From the NCBI GenBank assembly GCA_015065335.1, contig SVQM01000009.1, positions 1-36,261 of the forward strand: a stretch of DNA of 36,261 nucleotides. Reading direction: 5' to 3'. The stretch's first letter is position 1. The number at the start of each line of letters is the position of its first letter. Both the position numbers and the translations under genes were made by a program. Below the pieces are notes generated by a model. That model made no database searches. It saw only the letters and a list, made by a program, of their open reading frames with translations, and was not told the DNA's origin. Below, in pieces: positions 27,873-36,261 of the stretch. Source of the stretch: Oscillospiraceae bacterium (GTDB lineage: Bacteria; Bacillota; Clostridia; Oscillospirales; CAG-272).

Positions 27873-28200
27873 GGTGAAAACCTCCTAAAATATTGTTATC
27901 TAAATTATACTTCAATTAGCTGTGTTTGTCAACAAAAAATACGTATTTTGTTAAATCTTTTGATTATTGTTCCGGTTGGTACACAGTGGTTTATAATGAG
28001 TAATATTACTGCTTGAAAAACGGTAAAAAAAGAAATACAGCAGAATGTACTGCAAATGTATCACTTTTGCTTTGCAAAACCGATGGGTCCGATAGATATG
28101 CCAACACAAAACAAAGAAGGCACGCTGTTGCGTACCTTCTTTTTTGCGAAAGAGCGACTAAAAGTAGTATAAACAGAGGTAAAAACGACCAAAAGTAATG
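27873..28200. other. Intergenic region with a possible small transcript
   Basis: No convincing gene is seen. A TATAAT at 27992-27997 with a poor -35, an internal TTTTGC/GCAAAA mini-hairpin near 28073, and a terminator at 28114-28145 outline a possible ~140-base RNA. The open frame at 28013-28198 lacks a ribosome site and crosses the terminator. The words CGACTAAAAGTA and CGACCAAAAGTA recur between 28155 and 28196. Confidence 0.3.
28114..28145. terminator. Terminator downstream of the four-helix-bundle cassette
   Basis: 12-base arms (28114-28125, 28130-28141) with one mismatch and loop TGTT, followed by T on the plus strand; the minus side is also T-rich, so it may serve both directions. Confidence 0.75.
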
Positions 28201-28440
28201 TTATTTTGTTTTACTTTGCATGACGATAGTCAACACTATTGATATAACAAAAGAAAAGCCAAGATACAATAAGAACGGCAAATCCATAATTTTTTCCAAA
28301 AAAGAATTGAAGCCGTCAAATACGCAATCAATAGTAACTGCTATTACATTGCAGAGACAAAATCCGACGAACAGTGTTCCAAAAAATTCAAGGAACAAAA
28401 CGAATAGACCTAACCGTTTCTTATGTTTCTCGTTTTTCAT
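28201..28440 (-). CDS. Small two-helix membrane protein
   Basis: This 79-residue protein is basic at the N terminus (MKNEKHKKR) with two hydrophobic helices (~10-38 and ~52-74) separated by an acidic loop. I do not recognise a family. AAAGGAG lies 6-7 bases before the ATG, and the start overlaps the stop of the four-helix-bundle gene (ATGA), so the two are translationally coupled and probably functionally linked. Confidence 0.65.
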   Translation of the reverse strand: MKNEKHKKRLGLFVLFLEFFGTLFVGFCLCNVIAVTIDCVFDGFNSFLEKIMDLPFLLYLGFSFVISIVLTIVMQSKTK

Positions 28441-28787
28441 TTGTACTCCTTTGCTGTCTTGCAGGAAGCAATCAAAAGCCTACGAATATTACCGCAAAGT
28501 TTCTCCGCACATTGATATGTAGCCGTATCTATTCTCTGGGTTTCACACATCAATTTCAACCAATAACTAGTTTCATTTGATTCTTTCAATGCGATTTCTA
28601 ATTTTGCCACAAAATCCTTCTTGCTCTGTGCGTATTGGGCTTCATAAATATTCGCACCAACCGATGTGCCTGCTCTTGCAAGTTGATCGGTCATATAAGC
28701 ACTTTTCGGTGCGGTTACACCGTCAACAAGATTAACAATCGCAACCGCAAATTCAAAAGATAAGTCAAGCAATTTGTTTTCGGACAT
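28437..28787 (-). CDS. Four-helix-bundle protein (S23/IVP family)
   Basis: This 116-residue protein is of the family first seen encoded in 23S rRNA intervening sequences (PF05635), related in fold to the Avd proteins of diversity-generating retroelements. Landmarks: LLDLSFEFAVAIVNLV, DQLARAGTSVGANIYEAQYAQS and a segment IALKESNETSYWLKLM that fit the conserved family pattern. ATG at 28787 follows GAAGG; the longer open frame to 28937 runs through the hairpin array. The promoter (28810-28838) has a -35 that overlaps the edge of the hairpin element. No 23S rRNA, reverse transcriptase or template repeat is in the window. Confidence 0.85.
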   Translation of the reverse strand: MSENKLLDLSFEFAVAIVNLVDGVTAPKSAYMTDQLARAGTSVGANIYEAQYAQSKKDFVAKLEIALKESNETSYWLKLMCETQRIDTATYQCAEKLCGNIRRLLIASCKTAKEYK

Positions 28788-28809
28788 AAAAGCACCTTCT
28801 TTCGTCAAG

Positions 28810-28838
28810 ATTATACCATAAGATGCTGCACTTTTCAA
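28810..28838 (-). promoter_or_regulatory. Promoter of the four-helix-bundle cassette
   Basis: On the minus strand TTGAAA (28838-28833) and extended -10 TGGTATAAT (-10 at 28815-28810) with a 17-bp spacer. The -35 overlaps the left inverted repeat of the hairpin element by three bases. Confidence 0.75.
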
Positions 28839-29008
28839 TGATATATCGCTGACGCGATATGATATACGGCGTTGCCGTATGATATATTTGCGCTGCAAAT
28901 ATGATATAATATCCGTTCCTCCATATGCCGAAGGCATATATCATCGCACGACAGTGCGATATCATATCGAAGATATATCACCCGTTCTGACAGGAACGGA
29001 TATCATTG
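28836..29008. repeat. 173-bp array of six different hairpins bounded by inverted repeats
   Basis: The ends are CAATGATAT (28836-28844) and ATATCATTG (29000-29008). Inside are six hairpins with 5-8 bp stems and 3-4 base loops: 28843-28860, 28864-28880, 28884-28902, 28923-28939, 28943-28960, 28964-28976. Stem sequences all differ, but spacers are GAT in the left half and ATC in the right half. Hairpins 4-6 are enclosed by 12-bp arms ATATCCGTTCCT (28909-28920) and AGGAACGGATAT (28992-29003). Confidence 0.88.
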
Positions 29009-29050
29009 TAAAAACCCTCTTTTGTCAGGTAGACAAAAGAGGGTTTTTAC
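29008..29050 (-). terminator. Terminator of the tRNA gene
   Basis: Perfect 19-bp arms (29008-29026 and 29032-29050), loop of five, with a T-run in the descending arm on the minus strand, two bases after the tRNA CCA end. Confidence 0.88.
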
Positions 29051-29051
29051 A

Positions 29052-29076
29052 TGGCGCAGGGAGTGGGATTCGAACC
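29052..29076 (-). other. tRNA 3'-end fragment, probable integration attachment site
   Basis: Read on the minus strand this is GGTTCGAATCCCACTCCCTGCGCCA without interruption in the DNA: TTCGAAT T-loop, T-stem, acceptor 3' strand, discriminator G and CCA. The bases beyond 29076 do not continue a tRNA; the T-stem 5' side (GTAGG) already has one mismatch. So only the 3' end duplicated by integration is here, and the intact tRNA should be at the other end of the element, beyond the window. The amino acid cannot be assigned. Confidence 0.8.
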
Positions 29077-29081
29077 TACTT

Positions 29082-30152
29082 CTACACCTCTATAATTCCT
29101 GTATTTATTGGTATTTCATCTTCTTTGGTATGTATTTTGGTATGCATGAGATTAGAAAAGTAATCATCAATGGTATTTGCAACCTTAATTTCTTCGGCTG
29201 CGAAGGTTTGCTGATAGCGTTTAGACAATGTTGTTCCGTTAGCCCACCCACCTCTTGTTTGTGCATATCGGTCGGGGATTCCCAGCATCACCATTATGGA
29301 AGCATTTGCATGACGGAGATCGTGAAATCTGCAATGAGGGATGTTGTTGTCTCGGAGCATCTTTACAAATGCATCAGTTATCTTTTTGCCGGGACAATCC
29401 ACGATATACTGTGAGTCTTTGGGAGTTGCGTCGATAAGGTTTTTTATGTACTGGGGGAGAGGAATTTTACGTATGGATGAGTATGTCTTTGTTCCTTTTT
29501 CCACGATGCCGTTCTCGGAATATACTCTTGCGTTACGGACATAAATATAATCTTCGAACACGTCTTCCCATTTGAGTCCTATTATCTCAGATTGGCGAAG
29601 AGACATCCACGCTGAGAGAAGTATCGGGAGTTCAAGCCATGTTCCTTTGGCTGCATCCATGATCTGTTTCAGATGATCACCATCGGGTGTAGCATATTCT
29701 ATCGGACGCTCTGTAGGTAATGTTACTTTCGGAGTAAAGTCGGGGCGATAGAACTGTATACCGAGTATAACAAGTCCGTATGCGTTCTTCACCATTTTTG
29801 CAGAACGTTCGGAGGATTCTTTGTTAATGGCTTTCTGCAGTATTATTGTTGATACATCTGAGACCTTATAGTCCATTAAATTTTGGAATCTGTTACGTCG
29901 GTAACTTTTATACGAGCGCAGTGTAGATGGAGAAAGCACGTTTGATTTTGCGGCGATATAATCATCGATAGCTTCGCCTATAGTGATCCTACCCGGATCA
30001 CTTTTTTCTTTTTTGTCGAATTTATACTGTAATGCGAGCAGATCCGCCTCGGATGCTGTCTCGGCATAGAACACTTTATATTTACGCTTACCGCCCAAGG
30101 TACCGAGAAACACGGTGGACTTGTAGCGTCCTTTACTGACCTTTGTTGCCAT
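29082..30152 (-). CDS. Tyrosine-recombinase integrase
   Basis: This 356-residue phage-type integrase mediates site-specific recombination at the tRNA. It has an N-terminal AP2-like arm-binding part (~1-50), a SAM-like core-binding domain (~57-150) and the catalytic domain (~160-330) with R186 (SLRQSE), K222, H277-x-x-R280 (HDLRH), W303 in place of the second His, and nucleophile Y313. ATG at 30152 is chosen because AAGGAG lies 7-8 bases upstream; a TTG six codons earlier overlaps that site. Its stop codon is six bases from the attachment site, the usual arrangement. Confidence 0.95.
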   Translation of the reverse strand: MATKVSKGRYKSTVFLGTLGGKRKYKVFYAETASEADLLALQYKFDKKEKSDPGRITIGEAIDDYIAAKSNVLSPSTLRSYKSYRRNRFQNLMDYKVSDVSTIILQKAINKESSERSAKMVKNAYGLVILGIQFYRPDFTPKVTLPTERPIEYATPDGDHLKQIMDAAKGTWLELPILLSAWMSLRQSEIIGLKWEDVFEDYIYVRNARVYSENGIVEKGTKTYSSIRKIPLPQYIKNLIDATPKDSQYIVDCPGKKITDAFVKMLRDNNIPHCRFHDLRHANASIMVMLGIPDRYAQTRGGWANGTTLSKRYQQTFAAEEIKVANTIDDYFSNLMHTKIHTKEDEIPINTGIIEV

Positions 30153-30227
30153 AGGTTGTCTCCTTCCCAAAATTTACTTGATGACAAAATCTTCCTTCGC
30201 CTTTATCATATAAGCGGAGGTGATTCT

Positions 30228-30296
30228 ATGAATTACAAAGATTATAAAAAGTCACGTGATGCGGCGTGGCAGATCCTGCTCGATCTTGGTGTTTGA
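30228..30296 (+). pseudogene. Truncated duplicate of the ImmA-like gene start
   Basis: A 22-codon ORF (MNYKDYKKSRDAAWQILLDL...) matches the first 22 codons of the ImmA-like gene downstream (MQYENYTNARDLAWQILIEQ...) and even keeps the GCGGAGGTGATT ribosome region. It ends at TGA where the intact gene continues. It is best read as the remnant of a tandem duplication, though it could still be translated as a short peptide. Confidence 0.75.
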
Positions 30297-30316
30297 AAAT
30301 TGCATGGTGACAACCG

Positions 30317-30346
30317 CCTCCGTATTTTATACTATATATACGGAGG
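30317..30346 (+). promoter_or_regulatory. Inverted repeat that can cover the ImmA ribosome site
   Basis: CCTCCGTAT (30317-30325) pairs perfectly with ATACGGAGG (30338-30346), and the right arm contains the GGAGG used by the ImmA-like gene. Confidence 0.5.
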
Positions 30347-30354
30347 TGATTGCA

Positions 30355-30945
30355 ATGCAATACGAAAATTATACCAATGCCAGAGATCTCGCCTGGCAAA
30401 TCTTGATTGAACAAAACATTTGTGAGTTACCAGTAAATGTCGATTTCATCTGCGAAAAAATGGGCATACCTATTGTGCCGTTATCGACATTGATCTCGAT
30501 TACAGAGACGTATTCTCTATCTTCCGAGGAATTACAAAGCGGTAGTGTAATGATAATAGATAATAACGCTATCATCTTCGTTTCAGAAGAAGAGTCAATA
30601 GAACGAAAACGATTTACAATAGCTCACGAACTGGGGCATTATCTGCTAAAACATGCTCAAAGATTTGAAGATTTAGAAGAAGTAAAAAGTGAAAAAGAAA
30701 AAATATTTGAACGAGAAGCGAATGTATTTGCATCGCGTCTCTTAGCACCAGCGTGTGTTCTTTGGGGATGCGGTGTGAACTCCGCCATAGACATTGCTGA
30801 TTTATGTCAAATATCAAAAGAAGCAGCACAGTATCGATGGGAACGAATGAAACTTATAAAAGAGAGGGGAAAATTTTTAGCACACCCATTGGAAAAGAAA
30901 GTGTATGAACAATTTTTGCCCTACATAAAATCTCACAAAAAATAA
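30355..30945 (+). CDS. ImmA/IrrE-family metallopeptidase
   Basis: This 196-residue zinc protease has the HExxH motif at 91-95 (HELGHYLLKH) and a downstream third-ligand region, EREANVFASRLLAP. In ICEBs1 the ImmA protease cleaves the element repressor ImmR on induction; the two XRE repressors next door are candidate targets. ATG at 30355 follows CGGAGG; a longer frame start at 30256 lies in the remnant copy. It is convergent with the adjacent XRE gene rather than co-directional with it, which differs from the usual immR-immA operon. Confidence 0.9.
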   Translation: MQYENYTNARDLAWQILIEQNICELPVNVDFICEKMGIPIVPLSTLISITETYSLSSEELQSGSVMIIDNNAIIFVSEEESIERKRFTIAHELGHYLLKHAQRFEDLEEVKSEKEKIFEREANVFASRLLAPACVLWGCGVNSAIDIADLCQISKEAAQYRWERMKLIKERGKFLAHPLEKKVYEQFLPYIKSHKK

Positions 30946-30954
30946 CTGCAATAA

Positions 30955-31449
30955 TTATTTTTTGTTACAAGTTTGATTTATCACGGTTAAAATATCGTTT
31001 TTAGTTTCTTCGGGTATTTGTGTTCTTATTAGAACACCGTTACGATTAAATACAGCTATCATGTTACCATCTTCTTGGTAGTCATACTCAACTCTATGCA
31101 CTGATTTATATGAATCAGGAATGCTTTGAGAAATACTAATATATTCATCTATCTTTTCTTCTGGAACCCCGTTGTGTTGGAATATAGCGAGACGATTTTC
31201 TGCTGTTTTTTCTTTATCATAATCTTCGAATATTGAAGGGCTCCAAGGGGTGAGCCAGATAAAAAGATATTTTTCTCGTACATTGAGAATAATAGAGAGA
31301 GCTTTTAGATAATCACCGTTTGGTATTTCTGTTCCTTTTTCCCAAGAGATCAATGTGGAGACGGGTACGCCTATGCGGTCTGCTAATTCTTTTTGAGTCA
31401 TATTGCATCTTTCTCTGAAATATGCGATAGCTTTTCTACGCTTATACAT
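30955..31449 (-). CDS. XRE-family regulator with C-terminal extension
   Basis: This 164-residue protein has an N-terminal HTH (~5-60; MTQKELADRIGVPVSTLISWEKG) and a ~100-residue C-terminal region that lacks a LexA-type Ser/Lys protease signature. The C-terminal part may be the region recognised by the ImmA-like protease, by analogy only. AGAGGA precedes the ATG. It is transcribed leftward after the shorter repressor at 31485-31838. Confidence 0.82.
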   Translation of the reverse strand: MYKRRKAIAYFRERCNMTQKELADRIGVPVSTLISWEKGTEIPNGDYLKALSIILNVREKYLFIWLTPWSPSIFEDYDKEKTAENRLAIFQHNGVPEEKIDEYISISQSIPDSYKSVHRVEYDYQEDGNMIAVFNRNGVLIRTQIPEETKNDILTVINQTCNKK

Positions 31450-31484
31450 AATTATTTCCTCTTTCTGATAACTTAATAAAACTA

Positions 31485-31838
31485 TTAATCGCTCGATTCG
31501 TTGTCAAGAGCTTCGAGCATTCCCTTTATAAGATCAATACCTTTGTCCGAGAGGTGCATCTTTATTGCCTTACCGTCTCGACCGCAAATTATTACGGTAT
31601 TTTCATCAATCCCTTCGTCTGATTGGACGGAGGGTTTTTTTTCTTCTGTTCTTCCAAGAAGATAATCCACGGATACGTCGAAATATTCTGCGATTTTTTC
31701 AATAATATCTGCTTTAGGCAATCTTATTCCGCTTTCCCAATTGCCGACTGCCGATTGGCTAACACCAAAGTCACGAGCAAAGGTGTATTGAGATAAACCT
31801 TTGGATTCTCGTAATTCTTTTAACTTTATACGAAACAT
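31485..31838 (-). CDS. CI/ImmR-like repressor
   Basis: This 117-residue protein has a clear lambda-repressor-type HTH (~1-62; LSQYTFARDFGVSQSAVGNWESG, ending FDVSVDYLLG) and a short acidic C-terminal dimerisation-type tail. It is the first leftward gene from the divergent control region and so probably the main repressor of the rightward early operon, by the usual logic of such switches. The ribosome site is a G-rich AAGGGGG. Confidence 0.85.
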   Translation of the reverse strand: MFRIKLKELRESKGLSQYTFARDFGVSQSAVGNWESGIRLPKADIIEKIAEYFDVSVDYLLGRTEEKKPSVQSDEGIDENTVIICGRDGKAIKMHLSDKGIDLIKGMLEALDNESSD

Positions 31839-31919
31839 AAATATTCGCCCCCTTTATATTTATATTTAATCACGCTTTGAAATAAATTACAATACGAAAT
31901 CAAAATAAAATCACAAAAA

Positions 31920-31976
31920 GTGTTGACAAACACATAAGAAGGTGTTATAATCACAGCGTAAACACATTCCGTGTTT
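31920..31976 (+). promoter_or_regulatory. Divergent control region: early promoter with two operator-like repeats
   Basis: TTGACA (31923-31928) and TATAAT (31946-31951), 17-bp spacer, form a consensus rightward promoter. GTGTT-GACA-AACAC (31920-31933) covers the -35, and AAACAC-ATTCC-GTGTTT (31960-31976) lies just downstream of the start. The shared GTGTT half-site suggests binding by the adjacent repressor or Cro-like protein. Confidence 0.7.
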
Positions 31977-31995
31977 GCGGAAAGGAGGTACGCGG

Positions 31996-32202
31996 ATGCG
32001 AGAATGGCTCTGCGGTATTAGAAAAAAACAAGGTAAATCGCAGTATGTTGTAGCTCGAGAAATTGGCGTTTCTCAAAGTTATTATGCTGCGATTGAACTT
32101 GGAACGAGAGGAAATCCATTAAATGTGGATGTAGCAAAAAAAATCGCCGCCAACCTTGGGTTCGATTGGCAGCGATTTTATGAAGATGATGAAGGAGGGT
32201 GA
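31996..32202 (+). CDS. Cro-like HTH protein
   Basis: This 68-residue protein consists almost entirely of an XRE-type HTH (KSQYVVAREIGVSQSYYAAIELG). It is the first gene of the rightward operon, the position of Cro. ATG at 31996 is chosen because AGGAGG lies 7 bases upstream; the TTG at 31975 is upstream of that site and overlaps the operator. Confidence 0.82.
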   Translation: MREWLCGIRKKQGKSQYVVAREIGVSQSYYAAIELGTRGNPLNVDVAKKIAANLGFDWQRFYEDDEGG

Positions 32203-32207
32203 GATGA

Positions 32208-32438
32208 TTGATTAAAGCTGCAAGAAAAGAAAAAAAGCTGACTCAAGAGCAACTTGCAAGGGGAGTAGGGGTAAGTAGAAGCACAGTAGCAATGTGGGAA
32301 ACGAATCAGGCTACTCCTCGCGCAGCGACACTCTTGAAACTCGCAGACTTGTTTGGCTGCACCGTGGACGAGCTGCTCAGAGAAGGAGGTGGAGTGAGTG
32401 GATCCGCTGAAGAAGAAGCTGGAGTACAAGTATTTTAA
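32208..32438 (+). CDS. Small XRE-family HTH protein
   Basis: This 76-residue protein is an HTH (KLTQEQLARGVGVSRSTVAMWETN, ending CTVDELL) with a short tail. The start is TTG at 32208 after GGAGGG; no ATG is in frame. Five bases after the preceding gene, overlapping the next small ORF by ~40 bases. Confidence 0.72.
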   Translation: MIKAARKEKKLTQEQLARGVGVSRSTVAMWETNQATPRAATLLKLADLFGCTVDELLREGGGVSGSAEEEAGVQVF

Positions 32439-32622
32439 CGAAGATATTATTAAGTATCTTCCAACCGATGAGGAGGCTGTCATAGAGAGTTATCCCTTTT
32501 TCAGAGAAGGAGGTGGAGAGAGGGGTGGAAACGAAGGATACGCTTGCTTTTCTAAAGAGGTTAAAAGAAAAACGCTGCACTTCCGGCAAAGTGGTGAGTG
32601 CCGAAAAGCGCAGACGTTTTAG
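32398..32622 (+). CDS. Small hypothetical protein
   Basis: A 74-codon ORF starting with GTG, 8 bases after AGGAGG. The first ~45 residues are acidic (YFNEDIIKYLPTDEEAVIE) and plausible; the C-terminal third overlaps another ORF with its own ribosome site, so the reading could be partly spurious. No family recognised. Confidence 0.4.
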   Translation: MDPLKKKLEYKYFNEDIIKYLPTDEEAVIESYPFFREGGGERGGNEGYACFSKEVKRKTLHFRQSGECRKAQTF

Positions 32623-32695
32623 AAATCTTGTGAAAAGGATATCAAGTGAGAATGAAGTTACGGCTCCAGTATTTCAACTCCGTTTTCATTCATAA
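32525..32695 (+). CDS. Small basic hypothetical protein
   Basis: A 56-codon ORF from GTG at 32525 (alternative GTG at 32513), beginning ETKDTLAFLKRLKEKRC and strongly basic. A GGAGG-rich site precedes it. It overlaps the preceding ORF by ~100 bases and runs into the opposite-strand gene at 32658, so only one of these two rightward frames may be real. Confidence 0.4.
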   Translation: METKDTLAFLKRLKEKRCTSGKVVSAEKRRRFRNLVKRISSENEVTAPVFQLRFHS

Positions 32696-32870
32696 TGGAT
32701 TTCAGTTTACGGATAACCGAATTTGAAAGTTTATTTTGATCGATAGCTATACCGCGTTCCGGATCATCCAGTTCCATATCATCAAGATCATCATTGATCA
32801 TATCCCTGTACAGTAACATTGCTATCATCATAACTTGCATTTCGGATCCTGTAAAAGAAAAATCAGCCAT
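32658..32870 (-). CDS. Small acidic protein on the opposite strand
   Basis: This 70-residue acidic protein (MADFSFTGSEMQVMMIAMLL...) has a strong GGGAGGTGATACC ribosome site and its own promoter at 32893-32922, against the direction of the surrounding operon. No family recognised. Such counter-oriented small genes in mobile elements are often cargo or lysogenic-state functions; that is inference only. Confidence 0.65.
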   Translation of the reverse strand: MADFSFTGSEMQVMMIAMLLYRDMINDDLDDMELDDPERGIAIDQNKLSNSVIRKLKSIMNENGVEILEP

Positions 32871-32892
32871 GGTATCACCTCCCTTCGTTTTG

Positions 32893-32922
32893 ATTATATC
32901 ATGCGAAGATGGGGCGTGTAAA
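32893..32922 (-). promoter_or_regulatory. Promoter for the opposite-strand small gene
   Basis: On the minus strand TTTACA (32922-32917) and TATAAT (32898-32893) with an 18-bp spacer. Confidence 0.7.
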
Positions 32923-32951
32923 GAGCAATCTTAAAAGGAGGCAGGTTAAAA

Positions 32952-33449
32952 ATGAAAATCACAGAAGATTATAAGGGACTAAAACGAGTCAAGTGTGGAA
33001 CTTGTGTTATTAAAGGAGACTTGGAGGTTACGGAAGATCTTGAGATTGAACTCAGAGACAAGCTTATAGTAACAGGTTCTATATTTGTTAACGGAAACAT
33101 CAAAGTAAAGAGAGATATCGAAGTAAAAGGATGTATCGCGGCAGGGGGTAATATCTCGGCAGGTGGTAGCATTGAAGCGAATTTCGGCATTACAGCCGGA
33201 GGGAATATAGAAACGTGCGGCGATATCGAAACGCTTTTCAGCATTACAGCCGGGAGAAACATTAAATCATTGTTTGGTATAGAAGCCGGCCATAACATCA
33301 TGGCAGGAGACGGTATCGCAAGTAAATGTGGCGCCGTTGATGCAGAACAGGATATCAAGGCTTGGAATAATATCGAGGCAAGACGTCGCATCAGAGCAGG
33401 AGGTATCATTATGGCAGGAGGATGCTTTATGGAAGGAGGCAAACAGTGA
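32952..33449 (+). CDS. Beta-solenoid, bactofilin-like repeat protein
   Basis: This 165-residue protein is built of short hydrophobic/Gly repeats from ~15 to the end, such as ITAGGNIETCGDIE and IEAGHNIMAGDGI, with Ile at regular steps and AGG/AGR/AGH turns, as expected of a right-handed beta-helix of bactofilin or FapA-like type. It carries no membrane segment. Polymer formation is known for bactofilins but is not established for this protein. AAAAGGAGG precedes the ATG, and its stop overlaps the next start (GTGA). Confidence 0.75.
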   Translation: MKITEDYKGLKRVKCGTCVIKGDLEVTEDLEIELRDKLIVTGSIFVNGNIKVKRDIEVKGCIAAGGNISAGGSIEANFGITAGGNIETCGDIETLFSITAGRNIKSLFGIEAGHNIMAGDGIASKCGAVDAEQDIKAWNNIEARRRIRAGGIIMAGGCFMEGGKQ

Positions 33450-33649
33450 GGTACAGAATCAAGGCAAGGCTTGCCGAGCTTGGTCGGACAAGCGTGGAGG
33501 TCATTGAGGAGATCCGTCGGAGAGGAGTGGACACATCCCCCACGAGATTCTCGGCGGCGATCAGAGGGGCTGACCGTGGCCCGAAGGCGGAGAAGCTCTG
33601 CGAGATGGCAGATCAGATCATCAGTGAATGGGAGGTGAATTGTAAATGA
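33446..33649 (+). CDS. Small HTH-like regulatory protein
   Basis: A 67-residue basic protein (IKARLAELGRTSVEVIEEIRRRG) with the helical spacing of a small phage-type DNA-binding protein. GTG at 33446 overlaps the upstream stop and follows GGAGG by 6 bases; the ATG at 33422 would include that site. Exact function unknown. Confidence 0.65.
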   Translation: MRYRIKARLAELGRTSVEVIEEIRRRGVDTSPTRFSAAIRGADRGPKAEKLCEMADQIISEWEVNCK

Positions 33650-33864
33650 AGTGGAAAGAAAAGATCCGGTCAATGAATGATGATGAGCTTGCGGAGTTTA
33701 TTCTGGACAGCGCAGACATCGACGGGTTTGTTGACAAAGCTTGCATACAGTGTCCGCATCACCAGAGTGACGGAGTTTGTACAGCACATCCACGTGATCA
33801 AGAGTGCACGGCTGCTGTAAAGAAGCTTCTTGAAAGTGAGGTGCCGGATGATGAGGCGAAGTAA
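33646..33864 (+). CDS. Small Cys/His-rich protein
   Basis: A 72-residue protein with a Cys/His cluster in the middle (C-IQ-C-PHH, GVC-TAH, QEC), which could bind zinc or iron-sulfur. The start overlaps the previous stop (ATGA) after GGAGG. No family recognised. Confidence 0.65.
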   Translation: MKWKEKIRSMNDDELAEFILDSADIDGFVDKACIQCPHHQSDGVCTAHPRDQECTAAVKKLLESEVPDDEAK

Positions 33865-34039
33865 AGAAGACAGGTACATCCGAGAGATCAACGAGCCGGT
33901 ATGCCGGCGGATGATCTTTCCTGCAGAGGTGATCGGTTCTGCGGTCATTGGTGCGGTACTTATAGTTCTTGCCGTACTTGCAGGATGGGGATGCAGTATA
34001 GGAATTTATAAACTCATGGTATTCATGAGACTTTATTGA
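33848..34039 (+). CDS. Small single-helix membrane protein
   Basis: A ~63-residue protein with a basic N terminus and one strong membrane helix (IGSAVIGAVLIVLAVLAG). GAGGTG precedes the tandem ATGs at 33848/33851; the start overlaps the preceding gene by 17 bases. Possibly a phage membrane accessory; function unknown. Confidence 0.6.
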   Translation: MMRRSKEDRYIREINEPVCRRMIFPAEVIGSAVIGAVLIVLAVLAGWGCSIGIYKLMVFMRLY

Positions 34040-34052
34040 AAGGAGTATACAG

Positions 34053-34253
34053 ATGAGGACACCTGAAGAGATCAGAGCTGAGATCGAGAAGGTCGAACGT
34101 GCGAAAAAGGCTGCGGTTCGCAAGGCGGAAAGATGCGATCGGAGGATCTATGAGCTTGCCTGCGAGCACTCGGATGCGCTGAACGAAGAAAACCGCCGCA
34201 GGAGAGCTGAGGCGGCGGGGGTTGTAAAGGAGGCGTCTGATGCCGAGACTTAA
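34053..34253 (+). CDS. Small coiled-coil protein
   Basis: A 66-residue charged, Ala/Glu/Arg-rich protein predicted to be nearly all helix (EEIRAEIEKVERAKKAAVRK). AAAGGAG precedes the ATG. It overlaps the next gene by 14 bases. No family recognised. Confidence 0.65.
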   Translation: MRTPEEIRAEIEKVERAKKAAVRKAERCDRRIYELACEHSDALNEENRRRRAEAAGVVKEASDAET

Positions 34254-34545
34254 TGCGTCGGAGAGGGACAAGAAGATCGCCCGGATCGAGGGCCTCATAA
34301 AGACGGGGCTCAGTCAGCAGAGACTTACATACGGGGACTTCTGCGAGAGGATGGGGTTCTCCAAGACGAGGCTTACCACCATCAGGCGGGACCCGTGGGC
34401 GATGGAGCTGCGTGAGATCGTAAAAGCGGCGAGGATCCTTGGGCTTACGGAGTACGATTTTCTGTCCGTACTGATGGACATTCCGAAAAAGGAAAAGACT
34501 CCTGCCGAAGCAGGAGTCCGTAACCGGTATACCGTAGGGGCGTAA
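34240..34545 (+). CDS. HTH protein of the mobile element
   Basis: A 101-residue basic protein with an HTH-like core (LTYGDFCERMGFSKTRLTTIRRDP, then ELREIVKAARILGLTEYDFL) of phage XRE type. AAAGGAGG precedes the ATG. A 10-bp inverted repeat (34532-34541 with 34556-34565) surrounds its stop codon, without a clear U-run, and may be a weak terminator or processing site. Confidence 0.7.
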   Translation: MPRLNASERDKKIARIEGLIKTGLSQQRLTYGDFCERMGFSKTRLTTIRRDPWAMELREIVKAARILGLTEYDFLSVLMDIPKKEKTPAEAGVRNRYTVGA

Positions 34546-34611
34546 AGTGAGAAGAGCCCCTACGGATAGTATACCACATAATTAAACAAAAGTAAAGTGA
34601 GGATTTTGAAA

Positions 34612-35004
34612 ATGACAAAAAGTGAAATGCAGAAGAAATTTTTGGAGCTTGCGGAAAGCAGAAAAAAGGTTCTACTGGGTATTGATCTGACAAACATTGA
34701 CGAGAGCAATGCGCAGGATCACAGTGATATTATAATGGAACACTCAAAGAAACTCATTGAGATAAACCTTGAAACAATACAGTTTCTTGCGAAATACGCA
34801 CTTGATAATATTCAGCCCTTTTCGAAAGAAAGTCTTGTTTGGTGGGCATTCGTGTTTGAACACTTGAGTGATCAAATTAAAGGGCTCCTCGATGAAAAAA
34901 GCAAAAAACTTTACGAGGGGATCAAAATGACGATGGCGTTTGCGGATGTAGGTGTTATCAAGATCGACATGAGTCAGTTTCCCGGAGGTATGAAGAATGA
35001 GTGA
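34612..35004 (+). CDS. Hypothetical helical protein
   Basis: A 130-residue mostly helical protein (MTKSEMQKKFLELAESRKKVLLG...) ending FPGGMKNE. ATG at 34612 is preferred over GTG at 34597 because GTGAGG is 9 bases upstream. AT-rich relative to the genes before it. The start of the next gene overlaps its end. No family recognised. Confidence 0.65.
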   Translation: MTKSEMQKKFLELAESRKKVLLGIDLTNIDESNAQDHSDIIMEHSKKLIEINLETIQFLAKYALDNIQPFSKESLVWWAFVFEHLSDQIKGLLDEKSKKLYEGIKMTMAFADVGVIKIDMSQFPGGMKNE

Positions 35005-35668
35005 GTATCAGATCGGCAGTAATTCTGCTATGACGGTGGATGAGATCACTGCTTCATACCGTCAGGCGAAGGACAAGAAGGGACAGATAAAGATCCTTGC
35101 GGAGCTGTGCAGTACCTCCAAAGAAGAGATCATACATATCCTGCATGATGCCGGGTATGTTGATGAAAAAGGTAAGTTTATTCCTTCTTCCCTCATAAGA
35201 GACACGGATATGCCGGAGATCGTTCGGATGAGAAAGAACGGACTTCCTCTTTCCGCTATTGCAAAGAAGTACGGAGTAAGCGGACAGACAGTATCAAACA
35301 GGCTGAAGGAGTGGGAAAAGGTGAACGAGGTTACTGTGCCGGCTGATTTTGTTCATCCGCCTGAAGTTACTTCGGGAATAACGGATGCTTCTGAAGGAGA
35401 AGTGAAAACGAAGTCTGTAAAAACTTTTGAAGATCTCCGCCGTGAAAGATTCTTTGACGGTCTGGAGATAGACAAGGATTTCTACAAGGCTGTGCTTGAG
35501 GTATGCGATCTGCTTCGGTACATAGCTTATATATTTCCCGGTGTCGTGATGAAGTGCGCAGTAGAAAAAAACGGATCGGTAGTGGCATCGGGTATGCTCC
35601 AGGATCTTCTTGCGGAATATCAAGGAGGTGGACCTGCGGATGGCGACCTTGATGAGGAACAAGCTTGA
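34997..35668 (+). CDS. DNA-binding-type protein with two HTH segments
   Basis: A 223-residue protein with two helix-turn-helix-like segments, ~20-50 (KGQIKILAELCSTSKEEIIHIL) and ~75-105 (GLPLSAIAKKYGVSGQTVSNRLKEW), the second resembling resolvase/transposase-type HTHs. The C-terminal half is helical and may oligomerise. GGAGG precedes the ATG, which overlaps the preceding gene. It could be a replication or early-regulation protein; placement just before ssb favours DNA metabolism. Confidence 0.68.
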   Translation: MSEYQIGSNSAMTVDEITASYRQAKDKKGQIKILAELCSTSKEEIIHILHDAGYVDEKGKFIPSSLIRDTDMPEIVRMRKNGLPLSAIAKKYGVSGQTVSNRLKEWEKVNEVTVPADFVHPPEVTSGITDASEGEVKTKSVKTFEDLRRERFFDGLEIDKDFYKAVLEVCDLLRYIAYIFPGVVMKCAVEKNGSVVASGMLQDLLAEYQGGGPADGDLDEEQA

Positions 35669-36068
35669 GCTTTGCGGTAGACTTTGTGCCGATCCGGAGC
35701 TGAAGAATACGCCCACAGGGATACCGTGCACTACCGTTACACTTGCGGTACAGAGACCGTTCAAGAACAGTGCCGGCAAAAGAGACGCAGACTTTTTCGT
35801 CATTGACTTATACAAGCATCATGCTACTTTTGTATGCAAGTACATAAAGAAGGGCGAATCACTCTTTGTGGACGGATGGTTGAGGATAAGATCCTTCCTT
35901 GATCCTGCCCGAGGAGAAAGAAGATACAAGACGGAGATAGTGGTACAAAGTGTAGACGGTGTTGATCCCCGTAAAAGTGAAGAAGAGAGTTCCTTTGATA
36001 CAGATGAATTCTTTGAGGCAGCTCTAAGGAGAAGCTACGATATAACAAGTGAGAAAGGAGTTACATGA
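35640..36068 (+). CDS. ssb: Single-stranded DNA-binding protein of the element
   Basis: A 142-residue OB-fold SSB. The fold is clear: NKLELCGRLCADPELKNTPTG, VTLAVQRPFKNSAGKRDADFF, a KGESLFVDGWLRIRSF strand, and an acidic tail region. The usual C-terminal DDDIPF-type tip is missing; the end is ITSEKGVT, so its protein-partner contacts may differ. ATG at 35640 is chosen with AGGAGG at 35624-35629; ATG at 35652 is the alternative. It overlaps the preceding gene by 29 bases. Confidence 0.88.
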   Translation: MATLMRNKLELCGRLCADPELKNTPTGIPCTTVTLAVQRPFKNSAGKRDADFFVIDLYKHHATFVCKYIKKGESLFVDGWLRIRSFLDPARGERRYKTEIVVQSVDGVDPRKSEEESSFDTDEFFEAALRRSYDITSEKGVT

Positions 36069-36261
36069 TGTCAAGACCTGAACGGTTTGAAGATATTACA
36101 GAGATCGCACGTGCCAGAGGTGAGCACATCCGTTCGAATGCCAGGATGATAATTGCTACGGGAGGAAACTACAGTGATAATCGGAGGTACTGGGGATTTT
36201 ACCAGAGGGGTGGTACGTACAAGCTGTATCCTGCAAACGGATACACGAAGTCGGTGACAAA
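36065..36261 (+). CDS. Partial hypothetical protein of the element
   Basis: A frame from ATG at 36065 stays open to the window edge (~65 codons), after AAAGGAG and overlapping the ssb stop. The sequence (MMSRPERFEDITEIARARGEH... then GFYQRGGTYKLYPANG) matches nothing I can name. Confidence 0.6.
   Translation, partial: MMSRPERFEDITEIARARGEHIRSNARMIIATGGNYSDNRRYWGFYQRGGTYKLYPANGYTKSVT

Follow-up and report, generated by a model that had tools for sequence, protein, structure and literature searches.

Organization of the locus

The window, i.e. the whole 36,261-nt stretch analysed, carries on its minus strand a 907-bp cassette located between the CCA end of tRNA-Ser(UGA) and that tRNA's own terminator. 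The features of the cassette and its immediate surroundings are as follows.

28145-29051 (-), whole cassette, 907 bp: terminator hairpin, array, promoter, S23 gene, coupled two-transmembrane (two-TM) gene and right end
29052-29076 (-), displaced 3' end of tRNA-Ser(UGA), the attR of a prophage; its last 23 nt have an exact copy on contig C41
29007-29051 (-), terminator hairpin, first element of the cassette, 45 nt, a bidirectional 20-bp palindrome
28836-29008 (-), hairpin array: seven hairpins between TGATAT / ATATCA words, in inverted halves (4 + 3)
28993-29003 (-), 5' strand of the outer stem, ATATCCGTTCC, pairing locally (hairpin A) or with 28909-28919
28982-28999 (-), hairpin A
28964-28976 (-), hairpin B, pairing also found in the covariation alignment
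28943-28960 (-), hairpin C, likewise
28923-28939 (-), hairpin D, likewise
28909-28919 (-), 3' strand of the outer stem, GGAACGGATAT; helix 1 of the covariation alignment, 99.4 % of cells paired
28884-28902 (-), hairpin E, pairing also found in the covariation alignment
28864-28880 (-), hairpin F, likewise
28843-28860 (-), hairpin G, likewise
28810-28838 (-), sigma-70-type promoter of the S23 gene: -35 TTGAAA (28833-28838), 17-nt spacer, -10 TATAAT (28810-28815)
28437-28787 (-), S23 / PF05635 four-helix-bundle gene, 116 aa (Pfam 5.1e-23, TIGR02436 1.7e-25)
28201-28440 (-), cargo gene, 79 aa, two likely membrane helices; its start overlaps the S23 stop by 4 nt (ATGA)
28145-28166 (-), right-end motif TACTTTTAGTCGCTCTTTCGCA, identical or near-identical in L052, L146/L178, L040, L087, L098 and L144
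28110-28145 (-), native terminator of the tRNA (inverted repeat), now beyond the cassette and not part of it

The left boundary falls between CCA and TG at 29052/29051, in agreement with the 33 arrays found 32-62 nt behind tRNA or tmRNA ends (see below), while the right boundary, between TTTCGCA and AAAAAG, was found again before native or next terminators at five further loci (L040, L052, L087, L144 and L178). The right-end motif is clear in only part of the GATAT class. As the initial annotation had noted, the end of the array contributes to the -35 box of the S23 gene, since TTGAAA takes in the last letters of the array; such an overlap was present at 34 of 81 S23 loci, compared with 0.6 % of random windows. 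The 79-aa two-TM protein returned no Pfam family match.

ARAGORN detected no tRNA in the window, the tRNA-Ser(UGA) having been split by a prophage. The stop codon of the integrase gene (29082-30170) abuts, at 29082, the last 25 nt of a tRNA, and this exact tRNA 3' end occurs at one other place in the genome, the intact tRNA-Ser(UGA) on contig C41, which is followed by genes that read as phage (L326, 1435-3023). The integrase gene thus lies outside the cassette, in a prophage divided between contigs C126 and C41, with attR in the window and attL on C41. Prior to the arrival of the prophage, the cassette lay directly behind tRNA-Ser, and the tRNA was split later. We therefore rejected the idea that the array is a piece of the neighbouring integrase element. 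The prophage-like element itself (window 29052-36261) encodes an integrase, an ImmA/IrrE-like protein, XRE repressors and an SSB.

Structure and covariation of the array

On the minus strand, the first half of the array reads CAATGATAT-A-TGATAT-B-TGATAT-C-TGATAT-D, then (GGAACGGATAT), and the second half TATATCAT-E-ATATCAT-F-ATATCAT-G-ATATCATTG. The word TGATAT therefore occurs four times, followed by ATATCA four times, while the stems are all different. The initial annotation had described six hairpins separated by constant GAT and ATC spacers. The array is real and the spacers are constant; however, the hairpins number seven, in addition to the terminator hairpin at 29007-29051, and the full spacer is the six-letter word TGATAT (inverted, ATATCA). 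Its 12-bp outer stem is genuine, with 28993-29003 pairing with 28909-28919 over 11-12 bp and competing with hairpin A for one CCGTTCC strand, as is the inverted repeat CAATGATAT/ATATCATTG said to bound the whole.

Folding of the array is not a matter of chance, as fold z-scores were -9.5 on the plus strand and -10.6 on the minus strand, with 0/200 shuffles as good. Across 30 aligned homologous arrays, 94.4 % of pair cells were paired and 20 pairs changed on both sides (123 cells), and none of the covariation measures was reached in shuffled data (0/500). The stems thus covary, bearing out the earlier suggestion that different stems have kept their pairing.

A search of Rfam returned two inverted matches to Gut-1 (RF01706; gathering score 50) within the array: 28933-29008 (-) at 59.2 bits, and the second half at 49.1 bits, just under the gathering score. 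The proposal that the system is undescribed consequently needs qualification, as half of the array is already filed in Rfam, where it is read as an ncRNA. According to Weinberg et al. (2010; PMC2864571), Gut-1 is a candidate RNA of unknown function, identified in 2010 in human gut metagenomes. The window's own genome also contains solo half-arrays, with the word GTGAAAT, that match Gut-1 (contigs C34, C120, C89, C5 (three), C30 and C47; L001, L004-L007, L010, L012 and L014). They apparently lie at the ends of protein genes, without S23, and look like non-autonomous relatives.

Association of arrays with S23 genes

Arrays were collected by a pattern scan of genome contigs together with loci of the window's own genome, yielding a sample of at least 58 arrays of the GATAT word, nearly all of those listed being from gut Clostridia. 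Counted from the arrays, the association with S23 appeared loose: among those listed (at least 58), 16 had an S23 gene behind them and 42 did not, some of them cut by contig ends. The S23-less GATAT arrays were followed by other genes or by none, and approximately eight genomes with strong arrays showed no S23 of the same class. A count of 16 Gut-1 matches vs three S23 genes had at first led us to consider S23 an incidental neighbour.

This was overturned by a sample drawn from the protein side. A profile of six S23 proteins was run against 196 genomes of the window's bacterial family, and the upstream DNA of approximately 60 mostly lower-ranked S23 genes, chosen blind to arrays, was inspected; the two other S23 genes of the window's own genome are counted in this sample. 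An inverted-word hairpin array was present no more than 420 nt upstream of 54/60 S23 genes, and a tRNA within 600 nt of 44/60. Over all 86 S23 loci, there were 80 arrays, vs 1 in shuffled sequence and 9/84 in downstream DNA. Among the 14 closest S23 relatives in the 196 genomes (window included), 13 adjoin a scored GATAT array and the exception adjoins a degraded one. The co-occurrence with PF05635 that the initial annotation anticipated therefore holds in one direction only: nearly every S23 of the family has an array, whereas most GATAT arrays listed lack an S23.

The layout does not change, running from the terminator hairpin through four hairpins, the closing strand and three more hairpins to the promoter, while the word varies (TGATAT, TGATG, TGAAG, TGAAAT, TGAATT, GTGATAT and rarer ones). 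At two further loci (L032, 4407-4641; L065, 6958-7183), where there is no tRNA, inverted word arrays surround a central hairpin resembling a terminator and are flanked by additional perfect hairpins. In the open-access literature, we found papers on Gut-1, on rRNA intervening sequences (IVS) and on heptamer repeats, but none that links S23 with either hairpin arrays or tRNAs.

Insertion sites and cargo

Among the GATAT arrays listed (at least 58), 33 begin 32-62 nt past the 3' end of a tRNA or tmRNA, with the terminator hairpin filling the gap, and the starting half is the same in 32 of these 33; at least four further arrays lie equally close to such ends. The tRNAs used are Arg, Leu, Lys, Ser, Thr, Tyr, Gly, Glu, Gln, Pro, His and Val, in addition to tmRNA. 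The terminator hairpin recurs in related forms (CTTTTGTCTACC...) behind many different tRNAs, indicating that it belongs to the element. S23 arrays of the TGAATT class (L262, L263, L266 and L274) are not at a tRNA; at L262 the array lies behind the 3' end of a gene for an rlmD/rumA-like methyltransferase, with L263 and L266 similar in appearance.

Cassettes also occur in tandem. L208 contains three units of the GATAT and TGAAAT classes behind one tRNA-Arg:

Unit 1, TGAAAT array, S23 gene and DUF4279-like gene
Unit 2, GATAT array, truncated S23 gene and nucleotidyltransferase gene
Unit 3, GATAT array and another gene

Genes are exchanged between cassettes. The DUF4279-like cargo of the TGAAAT cassette in L208 is 74 % identical to that behind an S23-less GATAT array in the window's own genome, and a nucleotidyltransferase cargo is 73 % identical between cassettes whose S23 proteins are 54 % identical and differ in word class. 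Conversely, the S23 proteins of the window and of L123 share 94 % identity, with the L123 cassette at a different tRNA and its cargo unrelated, while a homologue of the 79-aa protein (52 % identical) is coupled to a TGATG-class S23 in L233. The start of the next gene overlaps the S23 stop by four bases in 26/64 cases. The initial annotation had treated array, S23 and the two-TM gene as one cassette; this is correct for the arrangement beside the tRNA, but the gene for the two-TM protein is not a fixed partner and belongs to a large set of cargo genes that can replace one another.

Empty and occupied sites, a comparison that the initial annotation had called for, were found at a tRNA-Thr(CGU) locus in genus g4, where G070 carries the element while G117, G445 and G444 run straight into a short terminator, homology stopping exactly at CCA in G117 and G445; the comparison is between species with a rearranged right flank. 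No circles, excision or recent transposition were seen among the loci examined, and the cassettes read contained no recombinase, transposase or relaxase genes. A general target-site or tRNA 3'-end duplication was not found (3/51 loci), and we rejected such a duplication as a general attR; copies of the tRNA 3' end do follow some cassettes (C66, C115, L031 and L188). L188 (G014:C28:195500-201000) comprises an S23-less cassette and its tandem duplicate behind tRNA-Gly, followed by several decayed tRNA 3'-end copies. The GATAT array had no match in viral contigs, and viral carriage of it was discarded. Two unannotated phage contigs carry S23, with a TGAAAT array in the one inspected.

The spacer word follows the S23 clade

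When the ten word labels were placed on the S23 tree (87 proteins, few columns, many open forks; word classes assigned by a simple count), they required 11 changes, close to the minimum of nine, vs 53.7 after shuffling (0/200 as low). The tRNA isotype, in contrast, required 49 changes vs 50.2 shuffled (73/200 as low), and a single S23 clade uses approximately ten different tRNAs without phylogenetic signal. Since isotype is random on the tree, the match between word and S23 does not derive from linkage to a chromosomal locus. Physical linkage of array and gene could by itself account for the co-segregation or for part of the signal.

Eight copies of the word, dispersed along the array, have stayed alike while the stems between them drift, suggesting that the word is probably read in trans by something. 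As the only gene shared by the loci on this tree, S23 is the natural candidate, and we infer that the word, as the conserved and class-specific feature, is a likelier object of recognition than the hairpin stems.

The S23 protein and S23 genes outside the family

The window protein is a member of the S23 family by both profiles (PF05635, 81.8 bits, cut-off 33.8; TIGR02436, 89.3 bits, cut-off 24) and has no known catalytic motif. Foldseek with its AlphaFold model (pLDDT 89) returned the S23 structures 2rld (E 7e-8) and 2gsc as well as Avd (4dwl, TM 0.79); against 4dwl and the ribonucleoprotein of a diversity-generating retroelement (DGR; 8ube), TM values were 0.77-0.79 at 11-13 % identity. The entries 2rld and 2gsc contain five chains each; by analogy, the window S23 is expected to be a pentamer, which would fit an array of repeated words.

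Outside the family (a phylum sample plus plasmids), S23 genes mostly lack a hairpin array or tRNA and have direct repeats just upstream, significant in 21/33 cases, 19 with period 7 and two with period 11. We thus abandoned the view that hairpin arrays are a general feature of S23 genes. The heptamer (twice 11-mer) repeats were seen at L284-L309, L312 and L313, in Nostoc, Dolichospermum, Bernardetia and Treponema as well as in various genomes of the window's phylum. By inspection of upstream DNA, three S23 genes lie in 23S rRNA (L302, L307 and L315) and two in RNase P RNA (L309 and L312). The RNase P RNA gene, as which the latter two sites read, is an unexpected location beside the known 23S rRNA. 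S23 genes in general may have a repeated word beside them, and hairpin spacing of that word may then be peculiar to these gut Clostridia.

DNA or RNA as the active form

In the orientation of the unit, the loops of the array hairpins are mostly C(TNC)G or C(TNNC)G, so the opposite strand presents cGNAg/cGNNAg loops: these were present in 158/273 array hairpins on the opposite strand and in 0 on the unit strand. Among 401 non-array hairpins of the same loci, both loop forms together made up 15 %, without strand bias (32 and 27). RNA hairpins favour GNRA and UNCG loops; the array tetraloops comprised 26 GNRA, 23 GNYA and no UNCG. According to PMC4686876, which cites Hirao 1994 and Yoshizawa 1997, extraordinarily stable DNA mini-hairpins have GNA and GNNA loops with closing G-C pairs. 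The word recurs with a period of 21.6 nt, about two turns of DNA. Moreover, the array is flanked by a terminator on one side and an outward-pointing promoter on the other, so that transcription from either neighbour is not expected to reach it. Loop types and position thus make DNA more likely than RNA as its active form. No reverse transcriptase (PF00078) was found in 11 of the 12 array-bearing genomes searched, namely the window's own (75 % complete) and 10 of the other 11, on which ground we rejected retro-mobility.

Proposed explanation and alternatives

Our preferred reading, to which we assign a probability of roughly 0.6, is that of a mobile cassette whose S23 protein binds the words of its array. 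It starts from the observed architecture, covariation, co-segregation of word and S23, random tRNA choice, cargo exchange, tandem units and within-genus occupied and empty site, and would add to these binding by S23, DNA as the active form, movement and autorepression. The cassette would insert directly 3' of the CCA of tRNA or tmRNA genes, so leaving them undamaged, and the terminator hairpin at its head would protect termination of the tRNA. Its seven hairpins would present eight word copies, four per orientation and approximately 21.6 nt apart, to an S23 pentamer, which would bind the words of the array in its own cassette, most likely with that array in a folded state, either single-stranded DNA or a cruciform. 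The resulting complex would mark the cassette for movement and, as the overlap of the -35 box with the array end suggests, may also repress the promoter of S23 itself. The variable second gene, often translationally coupled to S23, would be cargo, cassettes would stack head to tail behind one tRNA, and S23-less arrays would presumably be non-autonomous copies moved in trans.

Three other explanations were weighed against this reading. The array may be the substrate of a tyrosine recombinase or integrase supplied in trans from prophages or integrative and conjugative elements, the cassettes being passive riders and S23 an accessory or mere cargo. Insertion at the 3' ends of tRNA, tmRNA and the rlmD/rumA-like gene is typical of tyrosine integrases, some cassettes (those at C66, C115, L031 and L188) are followed by copies of the tRNA 3' end, and in the window an integrase element occupies the same tRNA; yet the use of approximately ten tRNAs per S23 clade without phylogenetic signal is unlike a sequence-matched att site, a general 3'-end duplication is absent (3/51), and the joint change of word and S23 would be left unexplained. 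We consider this explanation unlikely, albeit one deserving serious attention. Another, which dispenses with mobility, is an autoregulated operator, with S23 repressing its own promoter via the words and the hairpins merely insulating the tRNA. It would suit the -35 box at the last word in 34/81 loci and a word spacing of about two helical turns (21.6 nt), but it accounts for neither the S23-less arrays, the tandem cassettes, the exchange of cargo and random choice of tRNA, nor presence and absence at one locus, and we judge it very improbable.

The remaining explanation takes the array as a structured ncRNA (Gut-1) that is bound by S23 in the manner of Avd in the DGR ribonucleoprotein and has an RNA- or retro-type role. 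The RF01706 match, the covariation of the stems and the resemblance of the S23 model to Avd 4dwl and to 8ube (TM 0.77-0.79) all speak for it. Set against these are the position of the array between a strong terminator and the S23 promoter, DNA-type cGNAg/cGNNAg loops without GNRA preference or UNCG, and the lack of a reverse transcriptase in 11/12 array-bearing genomes, the window's included; in addition, as the halves are inverted, only half the hairpins of a single RNA would carry the stable loop type. We thus regard an RNA role as improbable. Returning to the mobile cassette, a broader version would have S23 proteins act as mobility factors for a new class of transposable elements that moves without a known recombinase or reverse transcriptase, each S23 clade reading its own word. 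Such elements would insert at genes for stable RNAs, here at tRNA 3' ends and elsewhere in 23S rRNA and RNase P RNA, and the rRNA IVS and heptamer-repeat S23 genes of other bacteria would belong to them. We put this forward tentatively, as conceivable but falling short of probable.

Comparison with known systems

To our knowledge, S23 proteins have been known since rRNA intervening sequences were described, and we know of no account of the function and spread of those insertions. Several known systems share features with the cassettes. Integron attC sites are folded DNA sites whose structure is conserved and whose sequence is variable, and integrons resemble the present cassettes in having small tandem gene cassettes with such sites; however, the cassettes here contain no integrase gene, have their own promoters, use many tRNA anchors and often begin with S23. 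In REP/RAYT systems of the IS200/IS605 type, a small protein is matched to hairpin DNA, with non-autonomous hairpin copies elsewhere. The pairing of a small protein with hairpin DNA and the non-autonomous copies are shared, whereas S23 is not an HUH transposase and its specificity apparently resides in the spacer word rather than the hairpin. With Avd of DGRs (4dwl and 8ube), S23 shares the fold (TM 0.79), but at only 11-13 % identity and without a reverse transcriptase having been found in the genomes searched. Tyrosine-integrase islands are characterized by a direct repeat of the tRNA 3' end at the far end, seen here at 3/51 loci (the few with one include C66, C115 and L188), and by an integrase of their own; the integrase at 29082-30170 is outside the cassette.

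Gut-1 (RF01706) is the closest match at the level of the array, as the first half scores above the gathering score, the second just below, and the solo GTGAAAT half-arrays of the same genome match too. The difference is that here two inverted copies form one array heading an S23 cassette behind tRNAs, whereas Gut-1 is filed as an ncRNA of the human gut only, with no link to S23 or tRNA in the available text of PMC2864571. The 23S rRNA IVS with an S23 ORF of Coxiella burnetii (PMC4990558) likewise places a PF05635 gene beside short repeated words at a stable-RNA gene; in that case, heptamers (GACAGAT) lie ahead of the S23 ORF and the insertion, within a 23S rRNA helix, has been called a selfish element. 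The cassettes lie behind the CCA of tRNAs and not inside rRNA, their words are spaced by covarying hairpins (period 21.6 nt), and they have a promoter, coupled cargo and tandem units. IVS elements may nevertheless be cousins of the cassettes. The STRR heptamer repeats of cyanobacteria and Beggiatoaceae (TAACTGA; PMC4679880) are also arrays of a heptamer word, though without hairpins or tRNA; S23 is not mentioned in that paper, but S23 genes with heptamer repeats ahead of them occur in Nostoc, Dolichospermum and Bernardetia plasmids.

As each known kind compared lacks a defining feature here or has it unconfirmed, we regard the element as new in kind, and the data point to an undescribed kind of mobile element built on the S23 family. 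The match between word and protein in several word classes turns the function of S23 into a direct binding or word-swap test, Gut-1 (until now an orphan Rfam RNA) gains a genetic context, and the gut Clostridia gain an integron-like store of exchangeable genes at tRNAs, including methyltransferases, nucleotidyltransferases, DUF4279, NUDIX and others.
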